Shown here: positions 47,008 through 51,526 of the stretch, piece after piece
Numbering within the stretch: the first letter of the stretch is position 1
Layout: each line of letters opens with the position of its first letter
NCBI GenBank assembly: GCA_022826755.1
Contig: JAJDUG010000077.1
Location: forward strand, 1-64,000
Direction of reading: 5' to 3'
DNA length: 64,000 nucleotides
From: Acidobacteriota bacterium
GTDB taxonomy: Bacteria > Acidobacteriota > Terriglobia > Versatilivoradales > Versatilivoraceae
Translations under genes and position numbers: made by a program
The notes under the pieces: model-generated
Database searches by the model: none
The model's input: only the letters and a program-made list of their open reading frames with translations
What the model was told of the DNA's origin: nothing

Positions 47008-49887
47008 TCAACCCTCGCTGCCAGGGGTCTGCAGCCGATAGATGATTCGTGCCAGGTGCAACTCGTCGTAACCGACGCTCTTGTCGAGGGCATCGAAAAC
47101 CGGACGCAGGAAATCCGCGCCCAATTCATCGAAGGCTGCCAGGACCTGGTCTTGCGTCTCGGATGACAACCGGGACTCGGAGCGGAACCGTTCTACGGGT
47201 AGCACATTTCCCGACTGCACGTACCTTTCCAAGTAAGAGATGACCGTCTTGCGTTTCACTCCGTAGGCTTGCATCAATTGGTTCAGCGACTCACCGGTCC
47301 GGAAGCGTTCTCCGACTTCCCGGCTGCGAGATATCAAGGATTTTGAAGCGGAAGTGGAGCGAGGGGACGGTTTTGATTTCTCTGCCAGTCCTTGTTCCCG
47401 GCAATAGGCGGCGATGAGGGGTAGGAAGATGCCGGCGTAGCTTGCAACTTTCGCCCGACCGATGCCGTGCAGCCTTTCCAACGTCGTTTCAGAGTGAGGG
47501 AAATAGGTTGCCATCTCTTGCAGAGACCGGTCGGAGAAGATCACGTAGGGTGGAACGTTGGCAGCATCCGCCAGCTCCTTGCGCCTGGTGCGGAGCTGTT
47601 CGAAGAGTTGACGGTCGTAGGCGGCGGTTTCGTCGGACGGAACACCGCGGCCGGAGGACTTCCTGCCTGTTTCCACCGGTGTGCCCGACACCTTTTCCCC
47701 CCTGAGAACAGCCCGCCCTGTCTCCGTCAGTTTGACGCTGCCATGTTCCATGTCTCGCGCAATCAGCTTCTGCTGCGTCAGTTGCTGCGCCAGGAGTTTC
47801 CATTGTTCGGCCGAATACTCCTTGCCTATGCCATAAGTTGAGAGGCGGTCATGTCGTTGCCGTATCACCTTCTTGGCTCGCGAACCTCGCAACACACCGA
47901 TAATATGACTGATTCCGAAAACTTGGCCCGTTTGCACCATGCAGAAGAGAAATTGCTGTGCTGGGGTGGTCAGGTCGACTTGCTCCTCATTTTTATTGAG
48001 GCAGTTGTCGCACATCCGGCAGTTATCCGCTCTGTAATCCTCTCCGAAGTAGGCCAACAATTCACCCCGACGGCACACTGCCGAGTTCGCCCAATCCACC
48101 ATGGCTTTCAGGCGCTCTCGCCGTCCCTTGCGTTCAGACGCTGCGCCCCGCCGGATGAAGTATTGGATGGTGTCTACGTCGCCGTAGCTGAACAGCAGCA
48201 GACAATCCGCCCGAAGCCCGTCCCGACCGGCCCGCCCGATTTCCTGGTAATAGCCTTCAACGTTCTGGGGCAAATCCACGTGGAGCACAAAGCGCACGTC
48301 CGGCTTGTCGATACCCATGCCAAAGGCAATTGTCGCCACCATGCACCGTACATCGTCGCGGATGAAGGCCTGCTGGTTGCTCTTGCGAGTTTCATCGTCC
48401 AGGCCGGCATGGTAGGGCAACGCGGAGAACCCATGCTCCACCAGTGCCTCGTGCAGTGAGTCCACTTGTCGACGGGTGGCGCAGTAGACAATTCCCGACC
48501 GGTTGGGATGGGCTGCGAGGAAATCGAGCGTTTGTCGCAGCAGGTTCGTCTTCGGCTCGACGGCAATGAAAAGGTTTGAGCGGTCAAAGCTGGCAATGAA
48601 CTCGTTCTCATCACGGAAACCTAATGTTTGTCTGATATCGGTTTGGACACGGGGAGTCGCCGTCGCCGTCAGGGCAACACAGACGGCGTGAGGGAATCGT
48701 TCTCGTACAGAGGCCAGTTGGCGGTATTCCGGGCGAAAATCGTGCCCCCATTGCGAAATACAGTGGGCTTCATCAATGGCCAGGCAGTCCAGCCGACAGT
48801 CGTCCAGCAGGAGCAATGTTTCAGGACGCAGAAGCGTTTCGGGCGCAAGGTAGAGCAGCTTCACCTCGCCCGTTTTGAGCCAATTGGTGGTCGAAACATA
48901 TTCGCTGTGGCTGAGGGTACTGTTGAGAAAAACGGCGCGTACACCCAACTGCTGCAACTGCGTCACCTGGTCTTGCATGAGTGAAATGAGTGGCGACACG
49001 ACGACTGTAAGCCCCTCGAAGAACAGCGCCGGCATTTGGTAGCACAGGGACTTGCCCCCGCCGGTAGGCATGATGATCAGGGTGTCGCGCCGGTACAGAA
49101 CGTTTTGGACGATCTCTAGCTGTAACGGTCGAAATTCGTCGTAGCCGAATACGGTTTTGAGGACGTGTTGGGGAGACTGATTGGTGGATGGTGAATCTGG
49201 GGGGATTTCGTGGCCGTTGTCCGGGTCATTCCGCCTCTCCGCCTCGGTTTGTTTCGGTGGCCGGCCTGATTCCTCCGGAAACCAGCCGGAAAGCTGCACG
49301 AAGCAGCGCTCCTCCATGTCTGGTTTATCGTCCGGTCGCCACCAGTGCGCCAATGAGACGCGCAACAACATCCCAGCCGGGATGGTTTTGAGCGGTTCCT
49401 GGAATCCAACGAAAGTGAGGGTGCGGCCCCCATCCCGGGTCGGAAAGCGATAGCGAATGCGCTTGCCGGTCGTGTCGCAAGTCAGCGGCCTATCGGGGCG
49501 CCAGAACGAGGTGCTGTATGGCGGGACGCCACTCTCTTCGGCGATGTACAGCGCGCCGTTTGATGTAGACTGGACCAGACCTTCGAAGAGCACCTCCGGT
49601 CCGCCTGCCTTGGGGGGCATGAACCGTTCGACGATGGTCACGGGAGCGTCGTGGGTGCGGAGCTTCCGTTTTTTGTCGACGACGATATTTTCCAAATGTG
49701 GTGGAATCAGATCAACTGCAGGCCGGGCCTCAACTTCCCATACGTCGCATAATTCATACTCTCTGCCGGCTCCGTCCCGGGCATCCGCATGAGCGGAAAT
49801 CAGTCGAGCACTCTTGCCATCCTGGGTGATGCCACCGATACATGCCCCTTTGCCCATGCGCGTCTTGGCAACGATCAACACTCTCAT
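47008..49887 (-). CDS. RecQ-family DNA helicase with unusual N-terminal domain
   Basis: A 959-residue fusion. Residues 1-205 form an extra domain absent from ordinary RecQ; its opening [20 protein letters not shown] recalls the dual-OB (DuOB) domain I associate with DUF488 neighbours, but this is from memory. After a disordered linker come helicase lobes 1 and 2 (245-575): Walker A TGGGKS 275-280, DEAH 372-375, [10 protein letters not shown] 548-557. The RQC zinc cysteines C605, C623, C626 and C629 are intact. A winged helix, an HRDC domain (about 765-855) and a C-terminal HTH_40-like domain follow. It should unwind DNA 3' to 5'. Its ATG overlaps the DUF488 stop by four bases. Base use is less GC-rich than the flanks. 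Confidence 0.93.
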
Positions 49888-50381
49888 GGAAGGATATGCT
49901 CGACTTCCAGATCGAGTTCTTTCGCCAGCTTGTCAGCCACCAGCGCTCGGTGACAAGCTCTCGGCTCCCGTTCGACGCAGAAGAGCGCAACGACTTGGGC
50001 ATTCGGTTCAAGGTCATCCAACAAACTCTGGGACTGAAAGTGGGACAGGCATTCGTTTTCGTAGGCCTCAACAAAAGCTGCTCCCAACTGGGTGCGTCGG
50101 CGCTTGGCGGTTTTTGTGACTCTATCGGCCTCTACTTGACGACTTCGGACCGATTTCGTGGGCGCCAGGTCTTTACGGTACAGGTAAGCAATGCCCAATT
50201 GAGCCAATCGTCCCTGCAAGCGTTGACTGTTGGCAAAAGCGTAGGTTGCCCCGCGCACGCCACGCCGCTGTCGGATGTCACAGAAGGTGTCCACCCTTGC
50301 TTCCTGCAACCTCAGAAAGAAACCGGCTTCGTCAAATCCATAGACACCGATAGTTACAATTTTCGGCTTTATCGCTCTCAT
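49884..50381 (-). CDS. DUF488 family protein (second copy)
   Basis: A 165-residue DUF488 protein. [13 protein letters not shown] opens the fold, [11 protein letters not shown] replaces the usual DVR-P-S block, and the C-terminal [19 protein letters not shown] has the family C-x-E-x-x-P-x-x-CHR motif. Activity of DUF488 is not established; the fold resembles nucleotide- or nucleic-acid-handling proteins. It begins three bases after the stop of the first DUF488 gene and overlaps the RecQ gene by four bases (ATGA), so a single transcript is nearly certain. It is divergent in sequence from the first copy. Confidence 0.88.
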
Positions 50382-50384
50382 CTC

Positions 50385-50933
50385 TTATCGATACTGCTTG
50401 CGCGAGTGAAATGTACGGTCAAACAGGGACTGTTGGCCTGCAGTGAGCCGATCAAGGACTTCAGTCTGTGACCGCTGATCGTCGTTTTCGTCGATATGAA
50501 TCACAGGCACTTTCTGCTCTTCCAGAGTGACTCCGATAAGCTTGCTCCGGTGGCAGTTCTCCGGTTTCCCCTCGCTGCACATCAGCGCCACTCGTCGTTG
50601 TTGAGCAAAGGCCGTCAGGATGCGTTGGATTCCCCGACGATAGCCAGCGGTGCTTTCGACTTTCTCGTACGCCACCCTGCCATTCACGTAACAATCTTTG
50701 TCTTCGGGGCGCCCCCCTAGCGTATCGCCCATGAACACGTAGCTAATCCGGTGTCGTTGCAACTCGCCAGCGAGTGCGTCCTTGGAAAATTCCGGCTTAT
50801 AGCGGGAATAGGGTGCCGATCGCACGTCAACCAGGTAGGCGATCTCGTATTCCTGCAGAATCGCAATCAGTTGTTCGATGGAACGATTACCGTAGCCAAT
50901 GGTGTAAACGGGAATGGGTGGGTGATGAGTCAT
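50385..50933 (-). CDS. DUF488 family protein (first copy)
   Basis: A 182-residue DUF488 protein of the classic type: VYTIGYGNRSIEQLIAIL, VDVRSAPYSRYKPEF and the Cys/His block MCSEGKPENCHRSKLI, all diagnostic. The role of the family is unknown. It follows the vapB/vapC-scar region on the same strand with 27 bases between the scar stop and its ATG; no clear ribosome site is visible. Base use is clearly less GC-rich than in the flanking DUF1501 region, which suggests arrival with the island. Confidence 0.9.
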   Translation of the reverse strand: MTHHPPIPVYTIGYGNRSIEQLIAILQEYEIAYLVDVRSAPYSRYKPEFSKDALAGELQRHRISYVFMGDTLGGRPEDKDCYVNGRVAYEKVESTAGYRRGIQRILTAFAQQRRVALMCSEGKPENCHRSKLIGVTLEEQKVPVIHIDENDDQRSQTEVLDRLTAGQQSLFDRTFHSRKQYR

Positions 50934-50960
50934 TCTTGCGGAAATGTTCCAGTGCGCCGG

Positions 50961-51019
50961 TCACGCCGGCTCAATGTCGGTTGGGGCGAAATCCTTGCCC
51001 TTGAACAATCGAGGATCAC
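50961..51019 (-). pseudogene. vapC deletion scar
   Basis: Immediately overlapping the vapB stop is GTG-ATC-CTC-GAT (MILD), the standard opening of a VapC PIN-domain toxin, with the GTGA overlap usual in vapBC. In another frame the next bases read RLFKGKDFAPTDIEPA and stop, which is a typical VapC C-terminus. The roughly 110 codons between, with the catalytic acidic residues, are gone, leaving no toxin. Confidence 0.75.
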
Positions 51020-51273
51020 TTGGGCAGGCCCCGCTCATCGTAAAGCAGGTCGCCATGTTCCAGGGACGAGGCCCCCTCTCCCACCAGCTTGGCGCAACGT
51101 TGTCCGATGGCATGCAGCTCTTGAGCGCGGACATCCACATCACGCCGGTGCTTCTCTCGAGCCAGCCGTTCCCGCAGCGCAACGGTTATGGCGTCGGTCT
51201 TGGTCTCGCCGGTAAGCTCGGCGAGTTCCCCGGCGAGTCGGCAGGCCTCTTCATTCTTGATGTTGAGACTCAT
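51016..51273 (-). CDS. vapB: VapB-type antitoxin (PSK/Rv0623 family), orphan
   Basis: An 85-residue antitoxin from the ATG at 51273, which follows CTGGAGG; an upstream in-frame start inside the operator region is not used here. The N-terminal DNA-binding part (MSLNIKNEEACRLAGELAELTGETKTDAI) is the PSK-family ribbon-helix-helix-like domain, the middle is a charged helix, and the C-terminal HGDLLYDERGLPK is the conserved VapC-binding tail. In vapBC loci it neutralises the VapC RNase and represses its own operon. Here the toxin is deleted and DUF488 genes follow, so only the repressor function can remain. Confidence 0.88.
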   Translation of the reverse strand: MSLNIKNEEACRLAGELAELTGETKTDAITVALRERLAREKHRRDVDVRAQELHAIGQRCAKLVGEGASSLEHGDLLYDERGLPK

Positions 51274-51284
51274 CACTGCCTCCA

Positions 51285-51313
51285 GGGTAGAATTCTCATT
51301 TACAATTCTACCC
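51285..51313. promoter_or_regulatory. VapB operator, perfect inverted repeat
   Basis: GGGTAGAATT, nine bases, AATTCTACCC: ten-base perfect arms, ending 12 bases before the vapB ATG. The AT-rich centre on the minus strand (GTAAAT, GAATTC) may hold the -10 region. This is the position of autoregulatory operators in vapBC operons. It should govern vapB and, because no terminator or promoter is evident after it, the DUF488 and RecQ genes. Confidence 0.7.
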
Positions 51314-51526
51314 TTGGCATTCAACCGAATGCGACCCATTTGCAGCGTCAGGGAGAAGGGGTGGCCGTAGGTCCCGGATTGAATGAGCAGCCGGTGTGTT
51401 CTCCGAATGCCGCGCCGACACCCTCTCGCTAGCGGGGAACGTCGCAGCCAAGCTGTCGAAGCATTGCAGGGGACAGGGAGGGAGTGTTGTTCCTGCGGTC
51501 CGGCTCCTGATGGTCGTCAGCCTGCC

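Follow-up and report, generated by a model that had tools for sequence, protein, structure and literature searches.

A RecQ-fused relative of the phage defence candidate PDC-M45 in an Acidobacteriota genome

The stretch of DNA analysed here (64,000 nucleotides from an Acidobacteriota bacterium, hereafter the window) carries at positions 47008-50933 of the minus strand a tight three-gene operon which, as read from its open reading frames, encodes two DUF488 proteins, DUF488a and DUF488b, followed by a dual-OB (DuOB) domain fused to a RecQ helicase (Table 1). The operon is a RecQ-fused relative of the known candidate PDC-M45 and not a new kind of system; PDC denotes a phage defence candidate (PMC11514479). 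We see about an even chance that it constitutes a DNA-targeting module against phages or mobile elements, related to PDC-M45, in which the DNA-binding part has become fused to RecQ. The defence role is suggested by association, namely by the PADLOC models of PDC-M45 and by exchange of the module, at one Poribacteria site, with CBASS, FokI restriction-modification (RM), type I RM, Argonaute-TIR and PDC-M19 genes.

Table 1. Features of the operon and its upstream neighbour (window positions).
Feature	Position	Strand	Description and evidence
DUF488a	50385..50933	-	first gene, 182 aa, cysteine-enzyme-like DUF488 protein; PF04343 82.7 bits, PDC-M45B 180 bits
DUF488b	49884..50381	-	second gene, 165 aa, divergent DUF488 protein; PF04343 47.4 bits, PDC-M45C 43.6 bits
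DuOB-RecQ fusion helicase	47008..49887	-	959 aa; Pfam and NCBIfam domains
DuOB (dual-OB) N-terminal domain, residues 1-202	49282..49887	-	PF22557 91.9 bits; model pLDDT 93.5
Canonical RecQ core (helicase, Zn, RQC, HRDC)	47407..49170	-	TIGR01389 2-590 of 591
HTH_40 tail, residues 862-947	47047..47304	-	PF14493 45.8 bits
Segment missing in congener G497	49182..50894		joint comparison; breakpoints differ in other congeners
Orphan vapB (PSK_trans_fac)	51016..51282	-	PF07704 90.7 bits; start picked by eye in ORF 51016-51339

The packing of the three genes is exactly as the original prediction, made from the sequence alone, had described it: DUF488a and DUF488b are separated by a 3-base gap, and DUF488b overlaps DuOB-RecQ by 4 bases. 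The operon is also less GC-rich than its surroundings, as claimed (57-58% vs 64-66%), and its GC3 amounts to 0.57-0.68 compared with a mean of 0.81 +/- 0.07 for the genes of the window. From this, transfer had been deduced, and the foreign base composition speaks for it; a recent arrival, however, does not hold, since the locus is older than the split of the genus. Recent transfer into the window genome is ruled out because all six congeners have this RecQ too, and at the corresponding locus. Because these congeners share the low GC3 as well, the low GC of the operon is the mark of an old acquisition. Within the window's own 64 kb, no recognisable defence system was found by reading. Just upstream of the operon and outside the conserved module lies the orphan antitoxin gene vapB (50958-51339, minus strand), of whose vapC partner a frame-shifted stub is left, with the deletion at about 51008. 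In congener G497 (L113) vapC is intact and encodes a 128-aa PIN protein, and congener G524 (L112) has an open 128-aa vapC homologue at the same place. G524 further contains a second vapB-like copy (L112 8102-8429 and 11265 onward), two similar vapB genes thereby flanking the retained recQ.

The third protein begins with the extra domain of about 205 residues for which a dual-OB type had been proposed, and this assignment is borne out: residues 1-202 match Pfam DuOB well above its cut-off of 27 bits. Invariant residues of the domain include R28, H64, E66, W129 and R176. Structure prediction, which had been put forward as a check, gave a tandem OB fold whose top matches in the PDB (Foldseek) are all HIN-200 domains (best E 6.8e-5, probability 1.0), followed in the ranking by the OB folds of Teb1 and BRCA2. 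The DuOB model thus shares the tandem OB fold with the HIN-200 domain of IFI16, p202, MNDA and AIM2, but TM-scores to HIN-200 are low, at 0.31-0.40 (0.37-0.40 for the top match), and the window protein is without a pyrin domain. In terms of the model, the combination of low TM-score and high probability would fit a similar tandem OB arrangement with a different domain angle. A profile search of PDB sequences detected no sequence homology of DuOB to HIN proteins, and the modelled resemblance appears remote, an analogy rather than a demonstrated homology. No relatives of DuOB were found in a viral structure library. The further proposal that the N-terminal domain recognises a modified nucleic acid finds no support in these data.

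Following DuOB, Pfam recognises DEAD, Helicase_C, RecQ_Zn_bind, RQC, HRDC and HTH_40 domains, which agrees with the RecQ with zinc site, HRDC and HTH tail read from the sequence beforehand, and the NCBIfam RecQ equivalog TIGR01389 scores 724.5 bits against a cut-off of 640.2. The fusion protein accordingly has the complete helicase, zinc, RQC and HRDC domains of a RecQ of this type, but it adds the 202-residue DuOB and the HTH_40 tail and stands in an operon with two DUF488 genes. In the window's genus the reading frame of RecQ is open, its motifs are intact and dN/dS is 0.15-0.28, by which sequence-based measure RecQ is under purifying selection. The window genome has no second full RecQ of the TIGR01389 type. 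Its second RecQ match (L110 370-5670, G000 contig 66) is a 1766-aa protein that combines DEAD/RecQ-like and UvrD-like helicases in one frame and, judged by frame length, is also encoded by congeners G524 and G497. Membership in Dpd, BREX or DISARM was considered and ruled out, as the matches correspond to general helicase similarity: For DpdF of the 7-deazaguanine DNA modification system Dpd, the NCBIfam score of 209.8 (cut-off 550) reflects general similarity to RecQ, and neither DpdA nor other Dpd genes were found in the operon or among its immediate neighbours.

DUF488 is a common family for which we know of no established function. Both DUF488 proteins of the window exceed the Pfam cut-off (PF04343, 22.2 bits), and both retain the block C-x-E-x-x-P-x-x-C-H-R, as had been noticed from the sequence; the two cysteines, the E and the R of this block are invariant in 44 aligned rows for DUF488a and 47 for DUF488b. 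Against the PADLOC models, DUF488a matches PDC-M45B with an E-value of 8.7e-54, and DUF488b matches PDC-M45C weakly and also resembles M19A. An AlphaFold2 model of DUF488b (pLDDT 96.8) had no match at E <= 0.001 to a rhodanese, PTP or RapZ-C structure and nothing convincing among the solved structures of the PDB; RapZ-C is a weak match at rank 30 (E 0.11). With the DUF488/rhodanese-phosphatase superfamily (cited in a passage of PMC12419801) the window proteins share Pfam membership and the invariant cysteine loop, but the structural link is weak here, as the position of RapZ-C indicates. Our literature search found no paper that treats DUF488 together with RecQ, or PDC-M45. In 2023 Burroughs and Aravind reportedly predicted that the DUF488 family acts in nucleic-acid-modifying conflict systems, and that paper on DUF488 enzymes may already mention parts of this module.

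The module also exists in a stand-alone form, DUF488-DUF488-DuOB, which matches PADLOC PDC-M45 A, B and C strongly. Like PDC-M45, the window operon unites three homologous components, DUF488a corresponding to M45B; it differs in that its DuOB has diverged too far for the M45A models to match (fusion residues 1-236 gave no match to PADLOC models at E <= 1), in the weak match of DUF488b to M45C and in the fusion to RecQ. Because its DuOB misses the M45A models, PADLOC would not call the window operon. To our knowledge, there is no experimental proof of defence by PDC-M45. A second candidate that contains DUF488 and a DuOB-like partner, PDC-M19, is similar insofar as a DUF488 stands beside a protein of similar style and as it occupies the same slot in a Poribacteria genome (L150, see below), but its single DUF488 is fused to another N-terminal region and it is without RecQ. 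The stand-alone form is present on two contigs of viral collections and on a Rhodothermus plasmid, where the match is to the DuOB protein; no DuOB was found among phage records. All sightings of the RecQ-fused form were on contigs from genome assemblies. One stand-alone cassette (L021 8863-11882) lies beside a Schlafen AlbA_2/RecG-C-like ATPase gene and a vapBC-like pair.

A collection scan returned 158 relatives, the best 80 of which were fetched for locus comparison. Since the scan kept the closest relatives, the counts among these best 80 of 158 describe the RecQ-fused branch and not all DuOB proteins: both DUF488 genes flank DuOB in 75/80 loci, DuOB is fused to RecQ in 72/80, and 68/80 show both features, the exceptions being mostly contig ends or stand-alone forms. 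Recurring in 68 independently retrieved loci, the DUF488-DUF488-DuOB-RecQ architecture is not a matter of chance. The complete loci in this set come mostly from Poribacteria, Chloroflexota and Verrucomicrobiota, and holders of the module further include Latescibacterota, Acidobacteriota, Planctomycetes and one genome labelled Actinomycetota. The homologue and gene-order search proposed at the outset thus found the gene set kept across several phyla: genes for DUF488 stand next to RecQ in many genomes besides this one, and the N-terminal domain, where fused to RecQ, is nearly always accompanied by them, so that neither of the two observations named beforehand as refuting the prediction was made as stated. 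Two loci (L062 and L094) hold a DuOB-RecQ that has no DUF488 gene alongside and could reveal the role of DuOB-RecQ by itself. On one Poribacteria contig (L095 1394-4011), DuOB and RecQ occupy two overlapping frames, either a natural split or an assembly frameshift. In Acidobacteriota DuOB is rare (11/396 genomes); two DUF488 genes adjoin it in nearly all of the positive genomes. Within the phylum the RecQ fusion is confined to the window genome and G377, the other carriers having a short stand-alone DuOB. The identity of G377 with a Blastocatellia record agrees with the placement of the window in Acidobacteriota.

The window's genus offers a view of what happens when parts of the module are lost. 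Each of the six congeners has one RecQ at the same locus, adjoining the same DUF1501 gene and full-length except in G518, where the contig ends; DuOB is absent from their whole genomes. The joints retain remnants: in G497, codons 1-14 of DUF488a run in frame into the start of RecQ; in G524 a DUF488a stub precedes the DUF488b start, which is fused to the RecQ linker; in G511, G536 and G518 a DUF488a stub and pieces of DUF488b are left and RecQ has a new start; in G541 the DUF488a start is fused to RecQ and vapB is lost too. On the RecQ tree, all seven members of the genus fall into a single clade (99) that lies within the DuOB-RecQ clade, the window sitting beside two scarred subclades of congeners. 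The possibility that the congeners represent an ancestral plain-RecQ state is ruled out by the retained DUF488a/DUF488b fragments and by this nesting. The remnants and the nested tree therefore indicate that DUF488a, DUF488b and DuOB were lost at least twice independently within the genus. From these joint losses with RecQ kept it follows that DUF488a, DUF488b and DuOB go together and are dispensable, and that RecQ is valuable alone; RecQ is not merely the slave of the module.

In Poribacteria, DuOB is patchy (47/85 genomes), and the DuOB-positive genomes have an RQC-type RecQ; close relatives without DuOB are mostly without it and keep a shorter RecQ. Frequent neighbours of the operon are an AAA gene, miaA and mnmA, and in many genomes its place is fixed. 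We read the surroundings of miaA in 13 DuOB-less Poribacteria genomes and recognised the same slot at nine loci, a small sample that leaves out L141, L148 and L153 (not the same slot) and L151 (too short to judge). DUF488a remains in 6 of the nine module-less slots (69-83% identity), in L144 together with a DUF488b cut at residue 57, and L149 holds a possible RecQ tail fragment. Known or candidate defence genes occupy 5/9 of these anchored miaA-side slots, again a small sample: type I RM in L145 and L152, the latter also with TIR/REase-Argonaute, CBASS SMODS with a 4TM protein in L146, FokI with two methylases in L147 and PDC-M19 in L150. As a control, ten random 18-kb regions were taken from five complete Poribacteria; their 127 proteins had, among the matches listed, at least two type I methyltransferases and at least one specificity subunit, plus general helicases and kinases. 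Outside Poribacteria, no defence enrichment was found among 126 neighbour proteins, which comprised one CRISPR-Cas locus and a few generic ATPases/helicases. Proximity to defence genes, which the original prediction had proposed to check, is hence supported by exchange with CBASS, RM and Argonaute at one Poribacteria site and is rare elsewhere; the anti-phage claim itself draws on that exchange and on the PDC-M45 models, and is weakened by neighbours that elsewhere are rarely defence genes. A pair of small genes stands beside the DUF488 locus both in L144 (3030-4324), where the module is truncated, and in L095 (5432-6734), where it is intact.

The fixed site in many Poribacteria, more like that of a resident gene, argues against defence, and the purifying selection on RecQ alone in the congeners points to a separate housekeeping use. 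The main rival is a chromosomal repair or genome-maintenance module, in which DuOB would steer RecQ to a class of ends that are damaged or blocked, for the DUF488 enzymes to clean. The RecQ core qualifies fully as a TIGR01389 equivalog, the sole one in the window genome and in most Poribacteria, and it is under purifying selection and, in many Poribacteria, in fixed synteny close to miaA/mnmA. We nevertheless hold repair to be rather unlikely, given a module that is patchy in Poribacteria, rare in Acidobacteriota, lost apart from RecQ at least twice in one genus and found in a slot shared with restriction and CBASS genes. It is quite improbable, in our estimate, that the DUF488 pair marks self DNA by DNA or nucleotide modification while DuOB-RecQ gives access to and discriminates unmarked DNA. 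The invariant cysteine block in both proteins and the conflict role said to be predicted for the family would suit such a system, but the operon has no nuclease to punish unmarked DNA, congeners without the DUF488 genes keep RecQ with no visible replacement, and DUF488 has no known modification chemistry. Least probable is a toxin-like or abortive unit in which DUF488 and DuOB hit host nucleic acid or nucleotides upon infection, with RecQ as sensor or brake: repeated loss of DUF488s and DuOB while RecQ stays is expected of costly parts and vapBC is carried at the locus within the genus, but there is no toxin fold, vapBC is outside the conserved set elsewhere, and complete loss of the module is possible.

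For the preferred reading, a DNA-targeting defence module, we propose the following course of events. DuOB, as a HIN-200-like tandem OB domain, would bind foreign or replicating DNA, and RecQ would unwind from the bound site, exposing single strands or ends. DUF488a and DUF488b, probably in one complex, could then act through their conserved cysteine site on nucleotides or DNA ends, by modification or other processing, and the processed invader DNA would fail to replicate, thereby protecting the cell from phage. The more far-reaching version, that a HIN-200-like OB domain delivers RecQ to invading DNA, that the DUF488 chemistry is new to immunity and that the helicase is re-used as an ordinary RecQ after loss of the other parts, we consider unlikely.

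The kind of system is already a named candidate; what appears new is its variant with a fused RecQ, together with the series of deletions, the exchange at the slot and the resemblance to HIN-200. The operon provides a concrete system spanning several phyla that allows DUF488 activity to be tested next to a helicase whose workings are well understood. The six congeners amount to a natural deletion series that parts the helicase from DUF488 and DuOB, and scans of the PADLOC type would miss the fused variant, as its DuOB escapes their models.
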